64,000 nt of DNA, from NCBI GenBank assembly GCA_022844125.1, contig JALHMI010000011.1, forward strand, positions 62,001 through 126,000, written 5' to 3'. Position 1 is the first letter of the stretch. Every line of letters starts with the position of its first letter. The notes beneath the pieces were generated by a model. That model worked only from the letters and a program-made list of their open reading frames with translations, ran no database searches and was not told where the DNA came from. The stretch is from Pirellulales bacterium (GTDB taxonomy: Bacteria > Planctomycetota > Planctomycetia > Pirellulales > PALSA-1355). Position numbers and translations under genes: made by a program. Shown here piece after piece: positions 3-13,143 of the stretch.

Positions 3-299
3 GAGCGAGTGCTGCGTCGCGAGATCGAGCGGACACCCGAGGTAGCGCTAACGTTGGTTCGCGAGACACTGGAGCTCTCCACGGCCGGAGATGCGAAGCT
101 GCATCTGCATCCCGAGGACATTCGCTGTTTGGGTCCGCAGCTTGAATCGCTGCTGGCAGAGCTCGGACGCACGTCTGCCGTTACGTTGATCGCCGACGGA
201 ACAATCACGCGCGGCGGCTGCCGGCTTGACACGCGGCTTGGCTCGATCGATCAGCAGCTCGAGGCTCAGCTCGCGCGGATCGAAGAAGAGCTTCGTTGA
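3..299 (+). CDS. fliH: Flagellar assembly protein FliH, C-terminal part (cut by window start)
   Basis: About 98 residues of a C-terminal FliH domain; the frame is open to the left edge, so the true start lies outside the window. FliH is the cytoplasmic stator-like regulator that binds the export ATPase FliI and brings it to the export gate. The visible part has the FliH/HrpE pattern: a helix, then LHLHPEDI, a strand with LIAD, and the closing G-GGCRLDTRLGSID segment that leads to a final amphipathic helix. The fliI gene follows 28 bases later, the usual neighbour. The assignment rests on this domain pattern plus gene order. Confidence 0.85.
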   Translation, partial: ERVLRREIERTPEVALTLVRETLELSTAGDAKLHLHPEDIRCLGPQLESLLAELGRTSAVTLIADGTITRGGCRLDTRLGSIDQQLEAQLARIEEELR

Positions 300-327
300 A
301 CCAACCTCAGGGGCTCCGGCCGATCTC

Positions 328-1653
328 ATGACCCTAGTCAGCGAAGATATTTCTGCCCGGCTTCGCGGTGTGCTCCCCGCCGACGTTCGGGGGCGCGTCG
401 TCCGGACCAGTGGTTTGACCGCGGCAGTGGCCGGTTTTCCGGCACCCGTCGGAGCATTGGTAAGCATCGATCGCCAGGCAGGTGAACCGCTGGCCGGCGA
501 AGTGATTGGCTTCCTCGATGATCTAACGCTCGTGTACCTGCTCGATCCGGCCGCCGGTTTGCGACACGGAGACCGCGTGCGACTCGTGAGCACGGCACGT
601 TCGATTCGTGTCGGCGAGGGACTCCTGGGCCGCGTCGTCAACGCCCGCGGCGAGTGCATCGATGGCCGAGCGCAGCCGGCACTCGCCCAGCGGGTGCCGC
701 TCGATCGGCCCGCACCCGCGGCGACGAGCCGACCGCGGATCTGCAAGCCGCTTTCGACTGGAGTCCGCGCGATCGACGGACTGCTTACCTGCGGACAAGG
801 CCAGCGTCTGGGCCTCTTTGCCGGCGCAGGCGTGGGCAAGAGCGTCACTTTGGGGATGATCGCCCGCTATACTTCGGCCGATGTTCGCGTGGTGGCGCTG
901 GTTGGCGAGCGTGGCCGCGAAGTGAATGAATTCATCGAGCGAGATCTTGGACCATCGCTGGCAAGCAGTGTGGTGGTCGTCGCCACGAGCGATGAGCCGG
1001 CGCTGGCCCGCGTGCAGGCGGCTTTGGCGGCAACGAGCATCGCCGAGTACTTTCGCGACTGCGGCAAGAATGTGCTATTACTGGTGGACTCGCTTACCAG
1101 GATGGCACTCGCCCAGCGCGAGATCGGTCTGGCGGCGGGCGAACCTCCGACCACGCGCGGCTTTCCACCGTCCACGTTCTCCGTCCTGCCGCGATTGCTC
1201 GAACGCGCCGGTCGCACGACTGCTGGCAGCATCACGGGTATCTACACGGTCCTGGTGGAAGGGGACGACCCGCAAGAGCCAATTGCCGACTCGGCCCGCT
1301 CGCTGCTCGATGGTCATGTGTGGCTCTCGCGGAAACTTGCCTCCGGAGGGCACTATCCGGCGATCGATGTGCTGGAAAGTCTCAGCCGGTTGATGAACTC
1401 AATCGTCGACGATGAACATTGCTCCGCGGCAACCGCGGTTCGTCGCGCGCTCGCGACTTATCGCGACCACGAGGACTTGATCTCGGTGGGTGCGTATCGC
1501 GCGGGGAGCAATCCCGCGGTCGACCATGCCATCCGCTTTCAAGCCGAAGTTGTGGAGATCTTGCGTCAGCCAATCCAGCAGCGCTCGAGCATCGACCAAT
1601 CGCGCGCGGATTTCATGCGGCTGGCGGCGCGAATGGCCGAGGCCGCCGCATGA
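328..1653 (+). CDS. fliI: Flagellum-specific export ATPase FliI
   Basis: A 441-residue type III export ATPase that hydrolyses ATP at the cytoplasmic face of the flagellar basal body to help unfold and deliver export substrates. The Walker A loop GAGVGKS lies at about residues 171-177, and the Walker B region LLLVDSLTR and the ATPase segment GEPPTTRGFPPSTFS follow, all as in FliI/SctN. The ATG at 328 is preferred over an in-frame upstream start at 226, because that one would overlap fliH by about 70 bases and add residues without family similarity; 441 residues is the normal length. It overlaps fliJ by 4 bases (ATGA), implying translational coupling. Confidence 0.95.
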   Translation: MTLVSEDISARLRGVLPADVRGRVVRTSGLTAAVAGFPAPVGALVSIDRQAGEPLAGEVIGFLDDLTLVYLLDPAAGLRHGDRVRLVSTARSIRVGEGLLGRVVNARGECIDGRAQPALAQRVPLDRPAPAATSRPRICKPLSTGVRAIDGLLTCGQGQRLGLFAGAGVGKSVTLGMIARYTSADVRVVALVGERGREVNEFIERDLGPSLASSVVVVATSDEPALARVQAALAATSIAEYFRDCGKNVLLLVDSLTRMALAQREIGLAAGEPPTTRGFPPSTFSVLPRLLERAGRTTAGSITGIYTVLVEGDDPQEPIADSARSLLDGHVWLSRKLASGGHYPAIDVLESLSRLMNSIVDDEHCSAATAVRRALATYRDHEDLISVGAYRAGSNPAVDHAIRFQAEVVEILRQPIQQRSSIDQSRADFMRLAARMAEAAA

Positions 1654-2096
1654 AGCCGTTTTGCTTCCCTCTGGAGTCGCTGCTGCGTTTGCGCGAGGCC
1701 TTTCGTGATTCGCGTCGTGTGGAACTGGCCCAGGCGCTGGCCGCGCAAGAACATCTGCGAGCCGAACTCGGAGCAGTTGCTCAACAGCTTGCCGCGAGCC
1801 GGCAGCAAGACCGCGAACGACGAAGATCGTTGCCTCTCACGCTCGTCCAACTGCGGCAGTCCGAATCCCGCCGCCAGTCACTGGCGGCCGAACAGACTCG
1901 AATCACGTCGGCCGCACGGGCGATGGCATTGCAAGTCGACGCATGCCAGCTGAGCCTGGCAACCGCCGAGTGTGAGTACCAGGCGGTGGCCAGACTACGA
2001 GCCTCTCGCCTGATGGAGTACCAACGCGAAGTGGTGCGCGAGGAATCGAAATTGTCCGACGAGGCGGCCGGAAGGGCTTTTCGCCGCGCGGCTTGA
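1650..2096 (+). CDS. fliJ: Flagellar export protein FliJ
   Basis: A 148-residue, highly charged, almost entirely helical protein with the FliJ opening (F-PLESLLRLRE) and long Arg/Glu/Gln-rich coiled-coil stretches. FliJ forms an antiparallel coiled coil that inserts into the FliI hexamer and touches FlhA, linking ATP hydrolysis to proton-driven export. The ATG overlaps the fliI stop codon. Low sequence conservation is normal for FliJ; identification depends on the N-terminal signature, length, coiled-coil character and position right after fliI. Confidence 0.85.
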   Translation: MKPFCFPLESLLRLREAFRDSRRVELAQALAAQEHLRAELGAVAQQLAASRQQDRERRRSLPLTLVQLRQSESRRQSLAAEQTRITSAARAMALQVDACQLSLATAECEYQAVARLRASRLMEYQREVVREESKLSDEAAGRAFRRAA

Positions 2097-2382
2097 GCCA
2101 GCAGTGCTAGCCGAAACCTCGCGCCCGAACCCATGGCATCAATTCGGACTGATCGGTACCAGCATTTCCGTTGACCTGCTCTTGATTGAAAGAGTCATTT
2201 CGAGGACAACTCCGCCGCCTTCGGCCCACATACACCTCTCTGCCGCGGGCGCGTCCTTCGACACGTTAATTTTCTCTACCAATCGCACTGGCCTGGGCGG
2301 ACTATCACGCACCTTCGGCGGTTCACGCGAGAACTGCCGGTGCGACGGCCACCGCGGCTGGTTTTAGCCAGGATACACCAGC

Positions 2383-2631
2383 ATGGTTGATCGAATGCCG
2401 CCGGCGCGGGGCGACCGAAATCTGCGCATCGAACTGGGACACGTGCACTTGCCGTGGGAGAAGGTTTCTGAACTCAGCGTTGGCAAAGTGGTCTCGCTGG
2501 AGAGCCTGGTCGACGAACCTGTCGATCTGTTCGTCGGCGAGCGGCTGATCGGACGCGGCGAAGTGTTGGTGCTCGACGGTTGCTTCTGCATCCGCGTGAC
2601 ACAACTGCCGCGGCAATCCAAGTCCACCTAA
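2383..2631 (+). CDS. fliN: FliN-type flagellar switch protein, single SpoA domain
   Basis: An 82-residue protein consisting of little more than one SpoA (surface presentation of antigens) domain: a VGKVVSLE-L-EPVDLFVGERLIGRGEVLVLDG core, as in the C-terminus of FliN/FliY. FliN lies at the bottom of the C-ring and also docks FliH-FliI. It is shorter than most FliN proteins (about 100-140 residues), since the N-terminal chemotaxis-phosphatase or linker region is absent; an in-frame TAG at 2365-2367 rules out an upstream extension. The 286 bases between fliJ and this gene hold nothing recognised. Confidence 0.85.
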   Translation: MVDRMPPARGDRNLRIELGHVHLPWEKVSELSVGKVVSLESLVDEPVDLFVGERLIGRGEVLVLDGCFCIRVTQLPRQSKST

Positions 2632-2667
2632 GCGGACACAACCAGACATCTGAAAAGGACGATAGAG

Positions 2668-3393
2668 ATGGCAAGGATGCCGCTCATCACTAAAATCGCC
2701 GGACTGGCCGCAATAGCGATCGGGATGGAGCTGCAGGCCACGGACGCTCTGGCTGATCTTCCCCCGCGTCCCTTGGATCAAGCGCAGCGTCATGCTGCGC
2801 CGCCGCAGGTCCCCTGGACTGGCGGCAACGCACAAGCGGCCGAGCCCCGCCGCTTGATGCCGACGGCATATCAGTCGCCGGTTGCAGGTGTCGCCGCTCC
2901 GGCGCCACTGCAGCAACCACTGCCGCTTACACCTCCGCAAGATGTAGGTGGAGTGAATGCCGGCAATCAGAATCTCAAACCGTTGGCCACCGGGGCCGCA
3001 AGCCTGGGACTTGTGCTTGGGCTGTTTCTGCTGGTGGTGTGGTCCGTGCGGCGCGGCATGCCTAAGGGGGCTGGCGTGCTTCCCGCCGAGGCCGTCGAAG
3101 TACTGGGTCGGGCACCAATCGCCGGCCGTCAGCACGTGCACCTGGTGCGCTGCGGCAACAAACTGGTGCTCTTGAGCGCCACTGGCGCCGGCGTCGAAAC
3201 ACTCACGGAAATCAGCGATCCGGCTGAAGTCGCCCGACTGCAGGAAATCTGCCGCCACACGACCTCACCGGCCGGCGCGTTCAAACAGTTGTTCGGGCGG
3301 ATTGGTCCACCATCGTTCACAACAAGTCCCGCTGACGCCAACGAGCATCTCGACTTCGATCATTTGCACTCGACGGCTTACCGTCGGGCCTGA
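2668..3393 (+). CDS. fliO: Flagellar biosynthesis protein FliO (long periplasmic N-terminus)
   Basis: A 241-residue protein with an N-terminal hydrophobic stretch (probable signal peptide, residues about 6-30), a Pro/Ala/Gln-rich linker to about residue 105, one membrane helix (LGLVLGLFLLVVWSV, about 113-127) and a cytoplasmic FliO domain (EAVEVLGRAPIAGRQHVHLVRCGNKLVLL). FliO helps assemble the FliP pore ring. A clear ribosome site (AAAGGA) precedes the ATG. Position immediately before fliP is canonical. The exported Pro-rich arm is longer than in enteric FliO. Confidence 0.87.
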   Translation: MARMPLITKIAGLAAIAIGMELQATDALADLPPRPLDQAQRHAAPPQVPWTGGNAQAAEPRRLMPTAYQSPVAGVAAPAPLQQPLPLTPPQDVGGVNAGNQNLKPLATGAASLGLVLGLFLLVVWSVRRGMPKGAGVLPAEAVEVLGRAPIAGRQHVHLVRCGNKLVLLSATGAGVETLTEISDPAEVARLQEICRHTTSPAGAFKQLFGRIGPPSFTTSPADANEHLDFDHLHSTAYRRA

Positions 3394-3405
3394 GGAGGCG
3401 CGAGC

Positions 3406-4470
3406 ATGTTGCCGAAGCCTGCTGCAGCATCAGTCCGAGGTATGATATCCGCTCTCGCGGTTGTCGCGGCGCTTTCGTTCACGGCTCACGGGGCCGCGGC
3501 AATGCCGATGCCGCAACCCTCGGTGCCGGCCGACGCCGTGCCGATGGGGCCACCGCAGGTGCTCACGACCACCACGCACATACGCCCGCCGGCGCCCCTG
3601 CCGAAAGCGGCGGCCAACGCGGCACCCCTTCCGGTCGAATCGAACGTGAGGCCCGTTTCCAGCGAACAGGCTGTCTCCGGTGAGCCGATTCAACGAGAAG
3701 TGTCCACGCCACCAGCCGTGCACGAGGCCCCGGCCAAACTCGACCAGTCACCCGGCTTCGAGGCGTTGCAGCTTCCCGGTGGGCTCGGCGGTCCGGCCGA
3801 GTGGACAAGTCCCGAGGGGCTCTCTTCAGCGCTGCAAAGCCTGGCCCTGCTCACGGTGGTCAGCCTCGCGCCGGCCGTGCTGATGATGACGACCTGCTTC
3901 GTGCGGATCGCGCTCGTGTTAGGTCTGCTGCGGCAGTCGCTGGGGACTCAGCAGCTCCCTTCGAACCAGGTCGTCACTTCGCTGGCGATGTTTATGACGC
4001 TGCTGGTGATGGCGCCGACCTGGCAAAAGGTCTATCACGATGCTGTCCTGCCGTACACCTCGCACGAAGTCACGGTTGAAGAGGCCTGGGACGCGGGTGT
4101 CAAACCTGTGCGGGCATTCATGTGTGCCCAGATTCAAAGCACGGGGAACGGCGCCGACATCATGTTGTTCTACAAGTATCTGCCGGCCGACACGCCTTCG
4201 CCGCAGAACTACGACGACGTTCCCTTGACCGTGCTGCTGCCGGCTTTCATGCTCAGCGAACTGAAGACGGCGTTCCTGATCGGCTTTCAAATCTTTCTGC
4301 CATTCCTCGTGATCGACCTGGTCGTGGCCAGTGTGACGATCTCGATGGGCATGTTCATGCTGCCGCCGGCGCTCGTTTCGTTGCCGCTCAAGCTGCTGCT
4401 GTTCGTGCTGGTCGACGGCTGGCATCTGGTGGTTGGCATGCTGCTCGATAGTTTTCAAATAGTTACGTAG
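3406..4470 (+). CDS. fliP: Flagellar export gate protein FliP with extended N-terminus
   Basis: A 354-residue core component of the FliP5-FliQ4-FliR1 export gate. Residues about 140-354 carry the FliP family core: [22 protein letters not shown], then [12 protein letters not shown], and the C-terminal [22 protein letters not shown] and LFVLVDGW motifs. The first ~130 residues are an apparent signal peptide (to about residue 33) and a Pro/Ala/Val-rich low-complexity arm. Typical FliP is about 245 residues, so the extension adds around 110. GAGGAGG precedes the ATG. fliO lies 12 bases upstream and fliQ 24 bases downstream. Confidence 0.95.
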
Positions 4471-4494: not shown

Positions 4495-4761
4495 ATGAAC
4501 GCTCAAGATGCCGTCGATCTGGGACAGCGGGCCGCCACGATTGCGCTGATGCTCGGCGGCCCAGTAATGCTCGTCGCGCTCGTCGTTGGATTGGTCATCG
4601 GGCTGCTGCAAGCGATGACGCAGGTCCAGGAGCAGACCGTCTCCTTCGTGCCCAAGCTGGTGGCCGTGGTGGCGGCGATCGTGCTGATGCTTCCCTGGCT
4701 GCTCGATCGGCTGGTCGAGTACTCGCACGACCTGATTGCGAACATTCCGAATACACTCTAG
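4495..4761 (+). CDS. fliQ: Flagellar export gate protein FliQ
   Basis: An 88-residue protein with two membrane helices, the standard size and topology of FliQ, and the family hallmark GLVIGLLQAMTQVQEQTVSF-PK. FliQ packs as a helical hairpin around the FliP/FliR core of the export gate. It starts with ATG behind an AAGGA ribosome site. Gene order fliP-fliQ-fliR is as in most flagellated bacteria. Confidence 0.96.
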   Translation: MNAQDAVDLGQRAATIALMLGGPVMLVALVVGLVIGLLQAMTQVQEQTVSFVPKLVAVVAAIVLMLPWLLDRLVEYSHDLIANIPNTL

Positions 4762-4786: not shown

Positions 4787-5566
4787 ATGTCCTGGTCGCC
4801 CGAAAACCTGAACGAGCACCTCGCTGCCGGCGGGCTCGTTTTCGTTCGGGTGGCGGCGCTAATGTTGATTGCGCCCGTGCTGGGGCCGTTCGAACTGGCG
4901 GCGCGGTGGCGGCTCGCCGTGGCGGTTGCGCTGGCAGTCCTGCTCACGCCGCTGGCCGTGGGCAGGGTCGAGTCGCCGCCCAATACACTCGCCGCTTGGC
5001 TCGCCGTTGCCGGGGGCGAAGCGCTTGTCGGCCTGATGCTGGGGCTAGGTGTTCGCATTATGTTCACCGGATTAGAAGTCGCCGGCGGACTCATTAGCCA
5101 GATGAGTGGCTTGCAATTGGCCGAGGTCTTTAACCCGTCGATGGGTGGCAATGTCCCGGTGTTCTCGCAACTTCTGCTGCTGGTGGCGACGGCCGTGTTC
5201 TTGCTGATCGGCGGTCATCGGCAGATGATCGAGGCGCTGCTCGATTCGTTCACCACAGTGCCGACCGGCCATGCCACGTTTTCCGCCTCGGCAGTACAGG
5301 GAGTGACCACGCTCGTGGCGAACAGCTTCGCCCTGGGCCTGCGTGCCGCGGTGCCGGCCGTCGTGGCCTTGCTGCTGGCGACACTCGTCGTCGGCTTCAT
5401 TGGTCGTACCTTGCCGCAGCTCAACGTGATGTCGCTTGGATTTGGCATTAACGTGCTAACGGCGCTCGTGGCGTTCGGCGTTTCGCTGGGCGGCGCCTGC
5501 TGGCTGTTTCAAGATGCGCTGGGACCAACGATCCTGACGTCGCTTGAAGCCCTCCGCTCACCATAG
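4787..5566 (+). CDS. fliR: Flagellar export gate protein FliR
   Basis: A 259-residue multi-pass membrane protein with the FliR pattern: an N-terminal R-AAL-L-APVLG, the central G-MFTGLEVAGGLISQMSGL followed by VFNPSMGGNVPVFSQLLLL, and a C-terminal GRTLPQLNVMSLGFGINVL motif. FliR completes the FliP/FliQ helical gate and contacts FlhB. Length is normal. The start at 4787 follows fliQ by 25 bases, and flhB follows after 18 bases. Confidence 0.96.
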   Translation: MSWSPENLNEHLAAGGLVFVRVAALMLIAPVLGPFELAARWRLAVAVALAVLLTPLAVGRVESPPNTLAAWLAVAGGEALVGLMLGLGVRIMFTGLEVAGGLISQMSGLQLAEVFNPSMGGNVPVFSQLLLLVATAVFLLIGGHRQMIEALLDSFTTVPTGHATFSASAVQGVTTLVANSFALGLRAAVPAVVALLLATLVVGFIGRTLPQLNVMSLGFGINVLTALVAFGVSLGGACWLFQDALGPTILTSLEALRSP

Positions 5567-5584: not shown

Positions 5585-6445
5585 ATGGCCGATCGCGAAG
5601 ATAAGACGCTTGCCCCCACCCCGCGCCGCAGGCAGCAGGCCCGCGAAGCCGGGCAGGTGGCAAAAAGCCATGACCTGGTCTCGGCCGTGCTGATGCTCGG
5701 TTCGCTGGGCATGCTGGTCTTCGCCGGCGGGAATTTGCTGGCCTACCTGGCCGAGTTTCTCAGACACTCGCTCGGCGGCGGCGCCTGGCAGCAAGCGCTC
5801 GAGGCCGCTTCGGTGCGCGATGCCGTCGTCGATAGCTCCCAGAGCTTGTCATTAGAACTTGGCCGGCGGTTAGTTCCGCTCATCGGTGGCGCCGGCGTAC
5901 TCGCGCTTGTGGCGCACCTCGTACAGTCGGGCCTGTTATTTCTGCCTGGGAGAGTACTGCCTGACCTGTCGAGGGTGAATCCTGCCCGGGGGCTTGGCAA
6001 CGTTTCGAGTGGCTCGAATTTTGCGCGACTGGCGTTCGGGCTGGGGAAGGTCGCCGTCGTTCTGGCAGTGGGCGCGGCAGGCCTCTGGAGTCGGCGCGAG
6101 GATGTCGTTCAACTCGCGGCATTCGACGCTGCCGATCTCGGCGGCAAAGCCTGGGAGCTGTGCCTTGTCTCGTGCCTGGAGATGGGCGCCGCGATGCTGG
6201 CCTTGGCGTCGCTCGACTACGTGTATCAGCGGTGGCGACTCGAGCGCGACTTGCAAATGTCACCGCAAGAGTTCCGCGAAGAACTGCGCGAAATGCAAGG
6301 CGACCCCCGCCTGGCCGCGCGGCGACGCGACCTGGCGCGGCAGCGAGCCGCCCCAGGCAATGTACACGGCGAATCGCTGCCAACGGAGCGACGCCCGCTG
6401 GCGACGACGCCCGCGAACATCAGCGGCGTGGATTCGATCCGCTAA
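5585..6445 (+). CDS. flhB: FlhB export switch protein lacking the C-terminal autocleavage domain
   Basis: A 286-residue FlhB-like protein. The N-terminal signature (TPRRRQQAREAGQVAKSHDL) and four membrane helices to about residue 215 match FlhB, and the cytoplasmic linker MSPQEFREELREMQGDPRLAARRR is present. FlhB is normally about 350-380 residues: after this linker comes the NPTH motif that cleaves itself and allows the switch from rod/hook to filament substrates. Here the protein ends in about 40 unrelated residues with no NPTH. The other two frames show none either, and an inverted sulfotransferase gene ends 29 bases downstream, so there is no room for a shifted continuation. It is either a damaged gene or a split protein whose C-domain is elsewhere. 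Confidence 0.88.
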   Translation: MADREDKTLAPTPRRRQQAREAGQVAKSHDLVSAVLMLGSLGMLVFAGGNLLAYLAEFLRHSLGGGAWQQALEAASVRDAVVDSSQSLSLELGRRLVPLIGGAGVLALVAHLVQSGLLFLPGRVLPDLSRVNPARGLGNVSSGSNFARLAFGLGKVAVVLAVGAAGLWSRREDVVQLAAFDAADLGGKAWELCLVSCLEMGAAMLALASLDYVYQRWRLERDLQMSPQEFREELREMQGDPRLAARRRDLARQRAAPGNVHGESLPTERRPLATTPANISGVDSIR

Positions 6446-6473: not shown

Positions 6474-7772
6474 TTAACCGGCCGCTTGTTGCGGAGTTGA
6501 CTGGCAGTAGCCGAATCTGCGCATGTAGGGACCCCAGCGGCGATCGATCTGATCGCGCAGCTCGTCGGGGATCTGGTAACTATCGGTGCGATAGTCCTGG
6601 CGATCCTTGAAGTAGGCTTCGAGCTTCGGCCGCGCGACATCGAATTCGCCCAGGCCGAAGTGGCTATAGATATGCTCCATCTTCGTGATCGGATCGCGGA
6701 CCAGGTCTTCAAACCGCACTTCGTATAGCCGCGCGGGATCAACCAGGTGGCGGTCCTGCTCGTACTGGCCGTACATCTGCTCGAAGCACGAGAAAACGTA
6801 CTCCTCCAGGTTCTTGTGCTTCGCGTCCTGCAGGGCTTCAAACTTGTAGAGTGTCTTCCAGAGCTTCACCGTGGAGCCGAACAGGGGATAAGGATCGCGC
6901 ACAATGTGCACGAATCGGGCGTCGGGAAAGATCTCGAGCAGGCGTTTGACGCGGCCGGTATGTGGCGGTGACTTCAGGATGATCCGTTTGGGATCGCGGA
7001 ACGTCACGCGTCGCAGGAACCACTCAAGCCCTTGCTTCCATTCGGTGAGTTCTTCGTTGCTGAGCCCCTGCATCGTCAGATACTTCTGATCGGCAGGCGG
7101 CTGATTCGGAAACGCCATCGTGCGGTAGGGAGATGGCAGACCCATGTTGCAAAGTGCGAACTCGTCTTCCTGCGGCTTGTCGAAGCCCGCTTCCATGTTG
7201 TCCATGGGCCGCTTGGCCGGCAGCAGGAACTTGAGCTTGGTGAGGAACCACTCGCTGATCAGAAAGTGGCTGGGCACCAGGCACTGGTATGTCGTGGGAT
7301 ATGTGTAGCGGCCGTCGAGGACCATCAGCTCGTGCAGGAGCGTGGTGCCAGAGCGCCAGTGTCCGATGATGAAAATCGGGGCGTCCTTGATTTGCATCCG
7401 CTCCAGATGGCGGCCCAGCAGCAGTTGCTGGAGCGGTCTCAGGGCCGAGTTCATCAGCGAGGCGAAGGTGACCGTTGATGCCAGCCCCAGCTTGGTGGGC
7501 CCGATGCGAAACTGGTTCTGGGCGACGAGCTTCATCCAGGTGCCAAACGTCATGCCGTGCCAAAACCTGGCGTTCCAAAAGTGATAGGGGTTCACTTCGA
7601 CACGCTTGGGCTTCGTCGCGCTGCTCGTTGTGGTGGGTGTGCTTGTGGTCATGCCTTGCTCCGCCGGAGTTGGGCTGGCTTCCGCCGGCTCGGGCCAGAT
7701 TCGCAGCTTATTCGCCGACTCTGGATTGCTTGCCATGATGGATTGTGGCCGCCTTGTGGGGGATTTCTGCAT
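6474..7772 (-). CDS. Sulfotransferase family protein
   Basis: About 432 residues. The PAPS-binding motifs are clear: a 5'-phosphosulfate loop IIGHWRSGTTLLHELM around residue 140 and a 3'-phosphate motif HIVRDPYPLFGST around residue 290. The family (Sulfotransfer_3) moves sulfate from PAPS to carbohydrate, peptide or small-molecule acceptors; the acceptor cannot be read from sequence. An ATG at 7772 has a GAAGG-like ribosome site; an adjacent GTG (7781) and a downstream ATG (7736) are alternatives, and the first ~55 residues are low complexity. Such genes are abundant in planctomycetes. It is inverted relative to the flagellar genes and lies between flhB and flhA. Confidence 0.9.
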   Translation of the reverse strand: MQKSPTRRPQSIMASNPESANKLRIWPEPAEASPTPAEQGMTTSTPTTTSSATKPKRVEVNPYHFWNARFWHGMTFGTWMKLVAQNQFRIGPTKLGLASTVTFASLMNSALRPLQQLLLGRHLERMQIKDAPIFIIGHWRSGTTLLHELMVLDGRYTYPTTYQCLVPSHFLISEWFLTKLKFLLPAKRPMDNMEAGFDKPQEDEFALCNMGLPSPYRTMAFPNQPPADQKYLTMQGLSNEELTEWKQGLEWFLRRVTFRDPKRIILKSPPHTGRVKRLLEIFPDARFVHIVRDPYPLFGSTVKLWKTLYKFEALQDAKHKNLEEYVFSCFEQMYGQYEQDRHLVDPARLYEVRFEDLVRDPITKMEHIYSHFGLGEFDVARPKLEAYFKDRQDYRTDSYQIPDELRDQIDRRWGPYMRRFGYCQSTPQQAAG

Positions 7773-7840
7773 GGCGGCCACCTTCAGCTTTCAAGATAGC
7801 AGCCGACCGCCCGTCGCACTACCGAGGGTGAGTCTCGCCG

Positions 7841-8341
7841 TTATTGCCGCTGAATTCTTGAGGAACTGTTGCGTCTGGCGACATGCTGCAGCGCAGCCTG
7901 CATCGCCATCAGAACTTCATGGCCCGCACGCTTGCCCACGACCCGTTCCAGCGGGACGCCACGCGGCGAGAGGAACAGCAACGTGGGGTACGCCGGCACC
8001 TGCAGTTCGCGACAAACGTGTTGCTCGGCGTCGGCATCCACACGCACGCAGACGAACTGCCGGCCAAGCCGGACGACTTTCGGGTCGAGAAGCGCTTCGT
8101 CCGCCATTTGATGGCAGTAGTCACACCAACTGGCGGTAAAGAACACCAGCAGCGGCTTGCCTTGCTGCGCGGCTTCCGACAAACCTTGCTGGTACCCGTC
8201 GATGAACGCCAGCTTGGGTGAGGTACCCCGCTGCTTTGCAGCTCGCGGAGCTGAGTCTGGAGGAGCGGTGCCGATCTCGCATCCTGCCAGAAGAAGTGCC
8301 AGCATCGCTACTGCGCCGGCTCGAAGCTTAACGGACGTCAT
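7841..8341 (-). CDS. Thioredoxin-fold lipoprotein
   Basis: 166 residues. A signal peptide ends in a lipobox-like LLAGC at about residues 17-21, so the protein is probably a lipid-anchored envelope protein. The thioredoxin fold follows with the active site ASWCDYC (CxxC), the cis-proline segment VPAYPTLLFL and a typical C-terminal helix. It resembles DUF255/thioredoxin_7 proteins that reduce disulfides outside the cytoplasm; the partner is unknown. It is transcribed away from flhA and upstream of the sulfotransferase, on the same strand. Confidence 0.85.
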   Translation of the reverse strand: MTSVKLRAGAVAMLALLLAGCEIGTAPPDSAPRAAKQRGTSPKLAFIDGYQQGLSEAAQQGKPLLVFFTASWCDYCHQMADEALLDPKVVRLGRQFVCVRVDADAEQHVCRELQVPAYPTLLFLSPRGVPLERVVGKRAGHEVLMAMQAALQHVARRNSSSRIQRQ

Positions 8342-8749: not shown

Positions 8750-10849
8750 ATGGCTACCGCCACCGTGCCTCGCGCGTCGCATTGGCTTGCCGGGTGGCAG
8801 GACTTGGTCCTGCCGCTGGCGGTCGTTGCTAGCGTTCTGGTGGTTTTGGTGCCGTTGCCGACGCCGGTTCTCGATGTGCTGTTGGCAGCGAACATCGCGA
8901 TCGCGGTGCTCGTGCTGCTGACGACCATCTACGTCCGCACTCCTCTGGAGTTCAGTATCTTCCCGACGCTGCTCCTGGCCTGCACACTTGCGCGGCTGGT
9001 GCTCAACGTCGCTACCACGCGGTTGATCCTTTCGGATGCGGGCAGCCTGGGCAGTGACGCGGCGGGCGCCGTGGTCGAAGGCTTTGGCAATTTCGTCGCC
9101 GGCGACAAGCTCGTGGTGGGCTTCGTGATTTTTGCGATCATCATCGTCATCCAATTCGTCGTGATTACTAAAGGGGCGACGCGAATCAGCGAAGTCGCCG
9201 CCCGTTTCGCGCTCGACGGGATGCCCGGCCGGCAGATGGCGATCGATTCCGACTTGGCCGCCGGCAACATCAATGAGTCACAGGCCCAAACGCGCCGCCT
9301 CGAAGTTACCCAGCAGGCCGAGTTCTTTGGCGCGATGGATGGCGCCAGCAAATTCGTGCGTGGTGACGCCATCGCCGGCATCCTGATCACCTTGGTCAAC
9401 GTTATCGGTGGGCTCGTGATCGGCGTCGTCGAGTATGACATGGGAGTTGCCGAGGCCGCGGACCTTTATACCCGGTTGACGATCGGTGACGGCCTGGTGA
9501 CGCAGGTTCCCGCGTTCCTAATCGCGCTTGCCGCGGGCCTCCTGGTGACGCGCAGTTCCAGTCGCGTAAATCTGCCGGTGCAGTTTCTCGACCAACTGTT
9601 CTCGAAGCCGCAAACCTTGTTCGTTACCGCAGGGTTCCTGGGGCTGTTGATCTTTACCAAGCTACCCGCGCTGCCGCTATTGGCCCTGGGCGGCGGTTGC
9701 ATCGCACTTGCGACGCTACTCACGCGACGAGAGAAAGAAACTGCCGCCGCGACCGCGAAAGCGGCAATTCCCGCCATTGAAACGCCCCGCGAGCAACGCG
9801 TCGAGGACTTCCTGACGGTTGATCCCATGGAGCTTGAGATCGGGGCGGGCCTGATTCGCCTCGCCGATCCACAGCGGGGCGGCGACCTGCTCGATCGGAT
9901 TCAAAAAGCTCGCCACGCCATCGCCACGGAGCTGGGCATTCTGATGCCGAAAGTGCGGATTCGCGACAATCTGCGGCTGGGCGCGCGGCACTATCGCATC
10001 AAGATCTCAGACGTCCCGGTTGCGGAAGGTGAACTTCAGCCCGGCATGCTGCTGGCCGTCGACGGTGGTTCGGCGAGCGGAAGCCTCACCGGCATTGCCA
10101 CGCGTGAGCAGGCGTTTGATTTGCCTGCAGTCTGGATCGATCCGGCCGCTCGCGCCAAGGCCGACTCACAGGGCTACCAGGTCGTTGAACCGATTAGCGT
10201 GCTCGTCACCCATCTCACCGAGACGGTTCGAGCGCACGCCGACGAGCTGCTCACGCGAGATTCAGCCCGGCTGCTCATCGACGAGCTACGCAAGACTTCG
10301 CCCGCCGCCGTCGACGAGCTCATTCCAGGGCAGATGAAACTGGTGGAAGTTCAGCAGGTTCTGCAGCTCTTGCTGCGCGAGCAGGTTCCCGTCCGGCAAC
10401 TCGCACTGATTCTGGAAGTGCTGGGCGAAGAGGCGCCGCATACGAAGCATCCCGTACAACTTGCCGAACGCGTGCGGCAGCGGCTGGCCCGCGTGATTTC
10501 CACTCGCTATCGCGACAAGTCCGGCCGGCTGGCCGTCTTGACGCTCGATCCGGCACTCGAAGACTGTATTCTTGCGGCGATCGAACCGGGCGAACGCGAG
10601 GTGCGTGTCCGCCTGGCGCCGCAGCTTGTCGAGTCAATCTGCCAGCGAATCGGGACCGCACTCACTCAACATGCCGCCGAGAGCCGCACGTCGCCGGTGC
10701 TGCTGGTGAGCCCCGAGCTGCGCCCCGCGGTCAAGCAGTTCACGGCAAGTTCGCTGCCGCGACTGGTCGTGCTGAGCTACGACGAAGTGACGCGCGACAC
10801 GCGGCTGGAATCGCTGGGGCTCGTCGAGCTGGAAGTTCTGCACGCATAA
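8750..10849 (+). CDS. flhA: Flagellar export gate protein FlhA
   Basis: A 699-residue FlhA. The N-terminal half has about eight membrane helices with the FHIPEP-family signatures (PLEFSIFPTLLLACTLARL-LN, then the cytoplasmic loop TKGATRISEVAARFALDGMPGRQMAIDSDL). The soluble half (from about residue 340) builds the nonameric ring that receives substrate-chaperone complexes. FlhA couples the proton gradient to export. Length and motifs are normal, and a CAGGAA ribosome site precedes the ATG. It is separated from flhB by two inverted genes and is followed after 28 bases by the FlhF/FlhG-like gene. Confidence 0.97.
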   Translation: MATATVPRASHWLAGWQDLVLPLAVVASVLVVLVPLPTPVLDVLLAANIAIAVLVLLTTIYVRTPLEFSIFPTLLLACTLARLVLNVATTRLILSDAGSLGSDAAGAVVEGFGNFVAGDKLVVGFVIFAIIIVIQFVVITKGATRISEVAARFALDGMPGRQMAIDSDLAAGNINESQAQTRRLEVTQQAEFFGAMDGASKFVRGDAIAGILITLVNVIGGLVIGVVEYDMGVAEAADLYTRLTIGDGLVTQVPAFLIALAAGLLVTRSSSRVNLPVQFLDQLFSKPQTLFVTAGFLGLLIFTKLPALPLLALGGGCIALATLLTRREKETAAATAKAAIPAIETPREQRVEDFLTVDPMELEIGAGLIRLADPQRGGDLLDRIQKARHAIATELGILMPKVRIRDNLRLGARHYRIKISDVPVAEGELQPGMLLAVDGGSASGSLTGIATREQAFDLPAVWIDPAARAKADSQGYQVVEPISVLVTHLTETVRAHADELLTRDSARLLIDELRKTSPAAVDELIPGQMKLVEVQQVLQLLLREQVPVRQLALILEVLGEEAPHTKHPVQLAERVRQRLARVISTRYRDKSGRLAVLTLDPALEDCILAAIEPGEREVRVRLAPQLVESICQRIGTALTQHAAESRTSPVLLVSPELRPAVKQFTASSLPRLVVLSYDEVTRDTRLESLGLVELEVLHA

Positions 10850-10877: not shown

Positions 10878-11996
10878 ATGACTGTGAAGACCTACCGAGC
10901 CCGAACGATGCAGGAAGCCCTGGCGCTGGTGCGCCAGGAGTTGGGCTCGCAGGCAGCGGTACTGCACACCCGCGAAGTGCGCTCGCGCGGGTTGGCGCGA
11001 CTGTGGGGAGGCGGCGAGCTGATCGAGGTTGTTGCTTCCGATAATGTGTCCGTGCCAGGCCGGCTCCCCGATCCGTACTCGAAAGTTCGCGAGCCAGTGT
11101 CGCCGCATTCGTCCACCGGAATCGACCTGACGGAGATTGCGTCACCGCGGGGGGATCATATCGAACCGCAGTTTGCGCCTCGCTCGCGCGCAGCGGCCTA
11201 CATCGAACAGGGCCTGCGGCCACTAGTCACAGTCGGTGAGAATCAGAGTCAGTTCGCTCACGCCGGCGGCGGAGCTCCGCTGGTGTTGATATGCGGCGCA
11301 AGCGGAGCCGGTGCAACGACCGTTTCATGGAAGCTCGCGCAAGCGCTTGCCGGCCAGGGACGCCGCGCGGTGTGGGTCGACGCCGACCTGAGTTCCCGTG
11401 AGTGTTCTCCTGCACCGAATCGCGAAGGATCTCTGGCGGATGTGCTGACTGGTCGCCGAACGGTTCACGAAGTGCTTACGCTTGGTCCCGACGGCGTGCA
11501 GTGCGTTCGCCGCGCACAAGGTGATCGCCCAATCGCGCTATCCGGATCCGATGCGAATCGGTGCGTGCAGCAGCTCAAGGGCCTTTCACCCCACGCTGAG
11601 GTGGTAATCGTCGATGCCGGTAGCGAGATGAACTTGTTGGGGTCCAAGTTGTGGCACGCTGCGAACGCCGTATGCGTGGTCGTGACGCCCGCCGACGAAG
11701 CGATCTTGGCTGGCTACGCGAACATCAAGAAACAGCGCCAGCAATTGCCCGACATTGAGCTCGTCACGTTCGTCAATCGCGCCGGACACACCGAGGCCGA
11801 ATGCGTTTCCCAACGGCTGGCCAGGGCCTGCCGACAATTCCTGGATGTGAGTCTCAAACTGGCGGGACATCTGCCCACACACGACGAGCGGTCGACAGGG
11901 TTCGACCTTGATACCGCGGCCGATCGGCTGTGGGAGTTGCTCTATTCCAGCGAACATCGGGCCGACAGCGGCGCTGCCAGCACCCAGAATCTCTAA
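10878..11996 (+). CDS. Chimera: FlhF-type N-domain joined to FlhG/MinD-like domain with altered P-loop
   Basis: 372 residues. Residues 1-50 match the start of FlhF (VKTYRARTMQEALALVRQELG, LHTREVRSRGL). The SRP-type NG GTPase domain that should follow is absent. After a variable linker (about 60-135) comes a MinD/FlhG-like fold: VWVDADL, GSLADVLTGRRTVHEVL, VVIVDAGSEMN, ANAVCVVVTPADEAI. The P-loop reads CGASGAGATT: the conserved lysine of Walker A (GKT/GKS) is alanine and the MinD signature lysine is also missing, so ATP hydrolysis is doubtful. FlhF and FlhG set flagellar position and number and are usually neighbours after flhA, which explains how a fusion could arise. An upstream TTG at 10860 is an alternative start; the ATG at 10878 matches the FlhF start. 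Confidence 0.8.
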   Translation: MTVKTYRARTMQEALALVRQELGSQAAVLHTREVRSRGLARLWGGGELIEVVASDNVSVPGRLPDPYSKVREPVSPHSSTGIDLTEIASPRGDHIEPQFAPRSRAAAYIEQGLRPLVTVGENQSQFAHAGGGAPLVLICGASGAGATTVSWKLAQALAGQGRRAVWVDADLSSRECSPAPNREGSLADVLTGRRTVHEVLTLGPDGVQCVRRAQGDRPIALSGSDANRCVQQLKGLSPHAEVVIVDAGSEMNLLGSKLWHAANAVCVVVTPADEAILAGYANIKKQRQQLPDIELVTFVNRAGHTEAECVSQRLARACRQFLDVSLKLAGHLPTHDERSTGFDLDTAADRLWELLYSSEHRADSGAASTQNL

Positions 11997-12357: not shown

Positions 12358-13143
12358 ATGGCGATGACCACTTTGGCGCCCGAAGATGTGGCGCAGATCT
12401 GGCAAGAGTTCAAGCAGGATCCGCACAACCAGGACCTGCGCAATCGCCTGGTCGAAATGTATCTGCCGTTGGTCAAGTACAACGGCGAACGGATCTGGTC
12501 GCGTCTGCCTGAAGGCGTCGAGCTGGACGACCTGGTCTCGGCCGGCGTGTTCGGCCTGATGGATGCGATCGACGCATTCGATCTCTCTCGCGGCGTCAAG
12601 TTCGAGACGTATTGCGTGCCGCGAATCCGCGGCGCCATGCTCGACGAGCTCCGCACCATGGACTGGGTTCCGCGCCTCGTGCGCTCCAAGGCCAGCAAGC
12701 TCAACGAGAGCCTGAAGACGCTCGAAACCCGGCTGGGCCGCGCCCCCAGCGAAATCGAACTCGCCGAGCAGATGGGCATCTCGGTGCCCGAACTCGAGAA
12801 GATGGTCATGGAGGCCAACGCGGTCAACCTGATCAGTCTCAATAAGAAGTGGTACGAAACGGACAGTTACAAAGACGTCCGCGAGATCGACATTCTCGAA
12901 GATAAGAAGGGCGAAGACCCCACGCGGCGCATCCAGAAACACGACCTGATGCGGCTGGTAACGAAGGGACTCAATCGCAATGAGCGGCTGATCATCATCC
13001 TCTATTACTACGAAGAGCTGACGATGAAGGAGATCGGCGCGACGCTCGATCTCTCGGAAAGCCGCGTGAGCCAGATGCACAGCTCGATCGTGCAGCGGCT
13101 GCAAAGCCAGCTCCAGCGCCGCCGGCCGGAGTTCGGCACCTAG
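12358..13143 (+). CDS. fliA: RNA polymerase sigma factor FliA (sigma-28, FliA/WhiG family)
   Basis: 261 residues with sigma region 2 (LVEMYLPLVKY, DDLVSAGVFGLMDAIDAFD, VKFETYCVPRIRGAMLDELR), region 3 (GRAPSEIELAEQMGIS) and region 4 (LNRNERLIIILYYYEELTMKEIGATLDLSESRVSQMH). This is the sigma-28 type that transcribes late flagellar and motility genes. The ATG follows an excellent CGGAGGA ribosome site. It closes the flagellar block and ends in a strong terminator. No FlgM anti-sigma gene is seen in the window. Confidence 0.95.
   Translation: MAMTTLAPEDVAQIWQEFKQDPHNQDLRNRLVEMYLPLVKYNGERIWSRLPEGVELDDLVSAGVFGLMDAIDAFDLSRGVKFETYCVPRIRGAMLDELRTMDWVPRLVRSKASKLNESLKTLETRLGRAPSEIELAEQMGISVPELEKMVMEANAVNLISLNKKWYETDSYKDVREIDILEDKKGEDPTRRIQKHDLMRLVTKGLNRNERLIIILYYYEELTMKEIGATLDLSESRVSQMHSSIVQRLQSQLQRRRPEFGT

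Follow-up and report, generated by a model that had tools for sequence, protein, structure and literature searches.

A Pirellulales genome (G000) encodes a single 372-residue protein in which the FliG-interaction domain (FID) of FlhF is followed by a MinD-type domain derived from FlhG, with no FlhF GTPase. Its gene lies in the window, the 64,000-nucleotide stretch of DNA analyzed here, flanked by flhA on one side and a FliA/WhiG-type sigma factor gene on the other (Table 1). We propose, with a probability of roughly 0.55, that the gene was born of an approximately 0.9-kb deletion and that its product is an adaptor free of a nucleotide switch and independent of GTP, which would bind FliG in an export apparatus without a flagellum.

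The original prediction, made from the letters of the window, described an FlhF start followed by a MinD/FlhG-like fold, the absence of the SRP-type GTPase, and the P-loop CGASGAGATT (residues 139 to 148) without a lysine, and this description was borne out by profile and structure searches. The NCBIfam FlhF model TIGR03499 matches residues 1 to 54 (E = 1.9e-11) over positions 1 to 50 of its 286 only, with a score of 44.5 bits compared to the NCBIfam cut-off of 174.15 bits, and the MinD model covers residues 136 to 310 (E = 3e-10). Pfam and NCBIfam profile searches found neither the N nor the G domain of FlhF in the protein; a hidden GTPase domain was ruled out by these results, in which Pfam SRP54 gave a P-loop-sized match alone (residues 136 to 170) at 13.8 bits, below the cut-off of 22.7. 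An FID profile built from 18 sequences, the fusion among them, retrieved the solved FlhF FID (PDB 9en1, E = 9.6e-6). When the FlhG half was compared with PDB sequences, FleN entries came out on top (5j1j, E = 1.9e-17), followed by FlhG (4rz2, E = 8.7e-9), which was also the top-ranked Foldseek match. According to the AF2 model, residues 1 to 60 (block means of 77 to 94) fold as strand-helix-strand-strand, agreeing with the three strands and one helix described for the FlhF FID (PMC11236974). Residues 68 to 132 form a linker modeled with low confidence, the FlhG half is Rossmann-type at only moderate confidence, and a helix predicted at residues 344 to 363, also with moderate confidence, is a candidate for the C-terminal membrane-targeting helix of FlhG. 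The fusion of an FID to FlhG without the FlhF GTPase is therefore a confirmed observation.

Table 1. Features of the fusion gene and its neighborhood, in window coordinates
Feature	Position	Strand	Basis and remarks
fliI, fliJ (below Pfam cut-off), 82-aa FliN-type protein, fliO, fliP	226..4470	+	Profiles
fliQ	4495..4761	+	Named from position and similarity to relatives' frames only
fliR	4787..5566	+	Profile
flhB without C-terminal cytoplasmic domain	5585..6445	+	Pfam profile positions 1-240 of 335
flhA, export gate, intact	8750..10849	+	PF00771, E 9.7e-241; 28 bp upstream of fusion
FID-FlhG fusion gene	10878..11996	+	ATG 10878, TAA 11994-11996, 372 aa; relatives have flhF and flhG at the same place
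FlhF FliG-interaction domain (FID), residues 1-56	10878..11045	+	TIGR03499, FID profile, AF2
Linker motif GIDLT, residues 81-85	11118..11132	+	Like motif in G045 fusion and both stand-alone FIDs
FlhG-derived MinD-type domain, residues 105-372	11190..11993	+	Profile, alignment, PDB sequence and fold matches
Degenerate remnant YIEQGLR, residues 108-114, of FlhG enhancer helix DQAxxLR	11199..11219	+	Alignment
Lysine-less P-loop CGASGAGATT, residues 139-148	11292..11321	+	Sequence, alignment
FliA/WhiG-family sigma factor	12358..13143	+	TIGR02479, 264.9 bits vs cut-off 189.6

A deletion between flhF and flhG, as originally predicted, is the origin suggested by the relatives, because all three other genomes of the family f1 that were compared (G001, G002, and G003) have separate, adjacent, full-length copies of both genes and none of these close relatives carries the fusion. 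The start of the fusion (residues 1 to 83 up to 1 to 110) is 52 to 56% identical to their FlhF proteins, and residues from about 115 to 335 are 40 to 42% identical to their separate FlhG proteins. In G001 the starts of flhF and flhG are 1,193 nt apart, and the FlhG part of the fusion begins about 312 nt past the start codon, which by arithmetic leaves about 880 nt missing compared to G001. A deletion of this size, removing the N and G domains of FlhF and putting FlhG in the FlhF frame, would explain the gene as it now stands.

The original prediction had also asked for separate copies elsewhere in the genome, and neither a second flhF nor a second flhG was found there by protein or FlhF-profile searches. 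Besides itself, the fusion protein drew three weak matches in its own genome, two in FtsY and Ffh and one on contig C20 (34 residues, E = 0.086). In the FlhF-profile search, the two best-scoring candidates for a separate flhF, which alone ranked above the fusion, turned out to be FtsY (C16) and Ffh (C3), and 40 further matches were all partial at an E value of 2.2e-6 or worse, identities having been read for the top two. A scan of contigs across genomes turned up no further fusion; besides the three family members already known, it recovered one additional record, in which the two genes are separate. An artefact of assembly or binning could in principle have joined two genes in a draft of 27 contigs, but we consider this very unlikely: the junction is in frame, the FlhG half is itself without DQAxxLR and has diverged to about 40% identity, and the same architecture appears again in another family (G045, below).

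The original prediction placed the loss of the P-loop lysine after the fusion, and here the separate FlhG proteins tell a different story. Among 37 of these (36 from genomes of the order, plus L043 from a different planctomycete record), the canonical Walker A lysine occurs in none, so the lysine-less P-loop was not caused by the fusion; judged from this comparison, its loss is old and shared. The first (signature) lysine is found at or near its position in 23 of the 37 and is missing too in 14, the P-loop pattern having had no match in five of the 37, and the fusion lacks both lysines. Three FlhG proteins of rod-bearing genomes (L064, L066, and L070, from G006, G009, and G014) have no recognizable P-loop at all and keep DQAxxLR. 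By alignment, the mark specific to the fusions is the loss of DQAxxLR rather than of lysine, since the motif is present in 37/37 separate FlhG proteins and in neither of two fusions (G000 and G045); this loss, together with the retained unit predicted to bind FliG, had been overlooked in the first reading of the DNA. In DQAxxLR it is the glutamine that stimulates the GTPase of FlhF (PMC12826062), and with that GTPase gone the motif is left without a client. The FleN protein of pseudomonads likewise lacks it (PMC12713375).

Loss of the GTPase switch seems to have happened independently in a second lineage. An FID was found in 16 of 80 scanned genomes, a set mostly picked for want of a high-scoring FlhF (a few had one near or over the cut-off) and covering only part of the 135 genomes of the order without an FlhF over the cut-off, with most of family f8 left out. 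Four of the 16 appear to be without an FlhF GTPase: G000 and three members of family f18. One of these (G045) encodes a second FID-FlhG fusion, with the P-loop GAASGVGATT, and two (G020 and G036) encode a stand-alone FID of 81 residues with no adjoining FlhG, located between flhA and the sigma factor gene in G020 and ahead of the sigma factor gene, at the start of a contig, in G036. For G020, G036, and G045, absence of a GTPase-bearing FlhF was judged from their best FlhF-profile matches (E = 2.1e-17, 5.5e-21, and 8.5e-19), which score much as FtsY does in G000 (5.8e-16). Eleven other FID-positive genomes were judged to have a full, often divergent FlhF from the length of the frame (367 to 617 aa) and the FlhF survey of the order, and G072 was dropped as evidence, its FID-bearing frame being cut by the end of a contig. 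Among the homologues, the fusion recurs in G045 and is absent from G001 to G003, and the lysine-less P-loop is common to unfused FlhG proteins.

The FlhA tree favors an independent origin of the fusion in G045. In it, G000 is sister to G001 within f1 (support of 100/99), G045 is grouped with f18, f16, and f20 (99/94), and a single clade of G000 and G045 is rejected (AU test, p = 0.030). The tree of the FlhG half, from whose FlhG rows the duplicates L023, L026, and L039 were dropped, lacks resolution and pairs the two fusions at a support of 34/5, and therefore neither shows nor excludes one origin. All four GTPase-less proteins (G000, G045, G020, and G036) contain a linker of the form G[IL]DL[TS], so that the unit retained each time is the FID plus this linker. 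A looser motif, G[ILVFM][DE]L, occurs in the linkers of 6 of 38 full-length FlhF proteins compared to 0.12 expected from shuffles, an excess that gives no probability because FlhF sequences are related; four FlhF proteins without the expected P-loop string and three duplicate loci were dropped from this count. As a separate observation, G036 (L091 79-324) has five rod/hook matches, a strong FliM, and a full FlhB; apart from the 81-residue FID no FlhF was detected in it, and the interval from the FID to the sigma factor gene holds no FlhG.

In this genome the cluster around the fusion encodes FliF, FliG, FliH, FliI, FliJ, a FliN-type protein, FliO, FliP, FliQ, FliR, FlhB, FlhA, and the sigma factor. 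The genes fliF and fliG (FliG at C11:60968) and the first part of fliH directly precede the window, and FliM is encoded apart from the cluster (C3:230333, E = 9.3e-23). This FliM has an N-terminal EIxxLL stretch, also found in G045, which we take to resemble a known FliM motif. FlhA is 67% identical to that of G003 and 69% identical to that of G001, and the sigma factor is 93 to 94% identical in G002 and G003. Neither flagellin (PF00669) nor rod/hook proteins (PF06429) were matched in any of the four family genomes (G000 to G003), each profile being positive in 4 of 14 controls. We infer that G000 has a working export apparatus.

An export apparatus without a flagellum may be far from exceptional among these bacteria. 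FlhA (at an E value of 1e-50 or better) was found in 280 of the 296 genomes of the order, rod/hook proteins in 158, and an FlhF over the cut-off in 161; as 4 of the 16 genomes in which FlhA was missing have rod/hook matches, 126/296 have FlhA without a rod/hook match, which points to such an apparatus being widespread in the order. Of 35 rodless genomes, 22 (from seven families, G000 included) have an FlhB without its C-terminal third (profile end at or before 244 of 335), 12 have a complete or almost complete FlhB, and 1 gave no FlhB match, compared to complete FlhB in 20/20 rod-bearing genomes; the Fisher value for this truncation is descriptive because the 55 genomes were chosen by hand. 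G045, which carries the second fusion, is rodless and has a full FlhB. FlhB of G002 and G003 keeps its C-terminal domain, with NSAG and NPAE, which presumably stand at the site of the NPTH cleavage motif. FliG was detected in all 16 FID-positive genomes compared to 37 of 64 FID-negative genomes (p = 0.0008), an association driven in part by family f8, without which the Fisher p value is 0.097. In three rod-bearing genomes (G124, G223, and G199; L046, L048, and L049), small profiles built from f1 matched neither FlhF nor FlhG within the 4.2 kb that follow flhA. Flagellum-less bacteria with a functional flagellar export apparatus have precedent in Lysobacter: the nonflagellated L. enzymogenes OH11 likewise keeps the apparatus, which is reported to be functional there (PMC7277350), but belongs to a different lineage, and the abstract mentions no FlhF-FlhG fusion.

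Decay of the FlhG half is a serious rival to the adaptor reading. After loss of the flagellum the flhF-flhG pair could be eroding piecemeal, with the fusion a functionless passing stage, an explanation that we regard as possible rather than probable. The FlhG half does evolve fast, with a dN of 0.62 to 0.76 between G000 and its relatives compared to 0.27 to 0.36 among those relatives, and three-way arithmetic makes its branch about three times longer in G000 than in G001 (0.53 versus 0.18). The G000 branch is also longer for the FID (0.14 versus 0.07, from few codons) and for FlhA (0.54 versus 0.35). Erosion would further agree with the absence of an adjoining FlhG in G020 and G036, the missing C-terminal domain of FlhB, and the lack of flagellin and rod/hook matches in the family, and as FlhA is kept in 56 of the 64 FID-negative genomes, the export gate can be retained without a detectable FID and the pair is dispensable for it. 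Yet the frame is intact over 372 codons, the FID of G000 stays close to those of its relatives (dN of 0.21 for G000-G001 versus 0.20 for G001-G003), and FlhA, FliI, and the sigma factor are well conserved. Third-position G+C content, at 0.77 for the FID, 0.69 for the FlhG half, and 0.71 to 0.84 for neighboring genes, is still that of a gene, more weakly so in the FlhG half. Under neutral drift the probability of finding no stop codon in the FlhG half falls from 0.58 at 0.05 substitutions per site to 0.026 at 0.5, and if the fusion is recent, drift may have left that half open. The stand-alone FIDs of f18 also speak against decay: between G020 and G036 dS is 0.65 and dN is 0.20, a ratio of 0.31 (0.08 for FlhA of the same pair), and with this ratio they look constrained, as under purifying selection.

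According to the adaptor reading, the FID would grip FliG and help the FliF-FliG ring to assemble, and the FlhG half, without its GTPase-triggering helix and P-loop lysines, would be capable of binding at most, plausibly to FliM/FliN, in an export apparatus that has no flagellum and no need for polar placement. In Shewanella, FlhF binds FliG through a domain made of its first 44 residues, FliG bound by FlhF can engage FliF and not FliM/FliN, the NG (GTPase) part attaches to the pole marker HubP, and FlhG interacts with FliM/FliN and is proposed to admit them (PMC11236974). By homology to that FID, the FID of the fusion probably binds FliG, and the FlhG half perhaps binds FliM/FliN. Compared to FlhF of Shewanella putrefaciens (PMC11236974, PDB 9en1), the fusion shares the FID in sequence and predicted fold and the position after flhA but lacks the N and G domains, and hence GTP binding, dimerization, and HubP anchoring. 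Compared to the MinD-type ATPases FlhG/FleN/YlxH (4rz2 and 5j1j), it has the same fold and the same place before a FliA-type sigma factor gene but a degenerate DQAxxLR helix, no P-loop lysines, and an attached FID. Alternatively, the function could reside in the FlhG half, which might restrain a transcription activator as FleN does or regulate flagellar number, with the FID as passive baggage. The top PDB sequence matches are indeed FleN, which has been solved also with FleQ; we nevertheless find this improbable, as it is the FID that is conserved and that is kept alone in G020 and G036, and the FlhG half is the one that changes fast.

The original prediction of spatial control by one protein is also unlikely, because the published polar anchor is the FlhF GTPase domain (PMC11236974, PMC12713375), gone here, and filament and rod genes are unmatched in the four family genomes. 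Where a genome has no filament to position, loss of placement and of its timer is to be expected. In Pseudomonas aeruginosa, FlhF deprived of its GTPase still allows a flagellum to form, nonpolar in about 65% of cells, and the NG or G part alone gives no flagella (PMC12713375). The construct FlhF-BN from that work, likewise GTPase-less and supporting flagella mostly at nonpolar sites, is a laboratory analogue of the fusion but differs in being engineered, in retaining the N domain, and in being unlinked to FlhG.

More tentatively, the FID may be the part of FlhF that cannot be dispensed with, a self-sufficient FliG chaperone or ring nucleator, with the GTPase switch and its trigger shed repeatedly in planctomycetes whose flagellum became an export machine without a filament, so as to leave the FID alone or tethered to a nucleotide-free FlhG that would bridge FliG to FliM/FliN. 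The titles and abstract openings surveyed describe no FID-FlhG fusion, stand-alone FID, or planctomycete FlhB truncation. These genomes offer a natural experiment that parts two jobs of FlhF, the predicted grip on FliG, which is kept, and GTP-controlled polar placement, which is lost, and they make natural minimal FIDs available for biochemistry.

One further feature of the window lies between flhB and flhA, where the minus strand (positions 6474 to 8341) encodes a conserved 435-aa sulfotransferase-like protein and a thioredoxin-like protein, both recognized by eye. The former had no match in NCBIfam, and the same pair occupies the same place in all four family genomes (G000, G001, G002, and G003).
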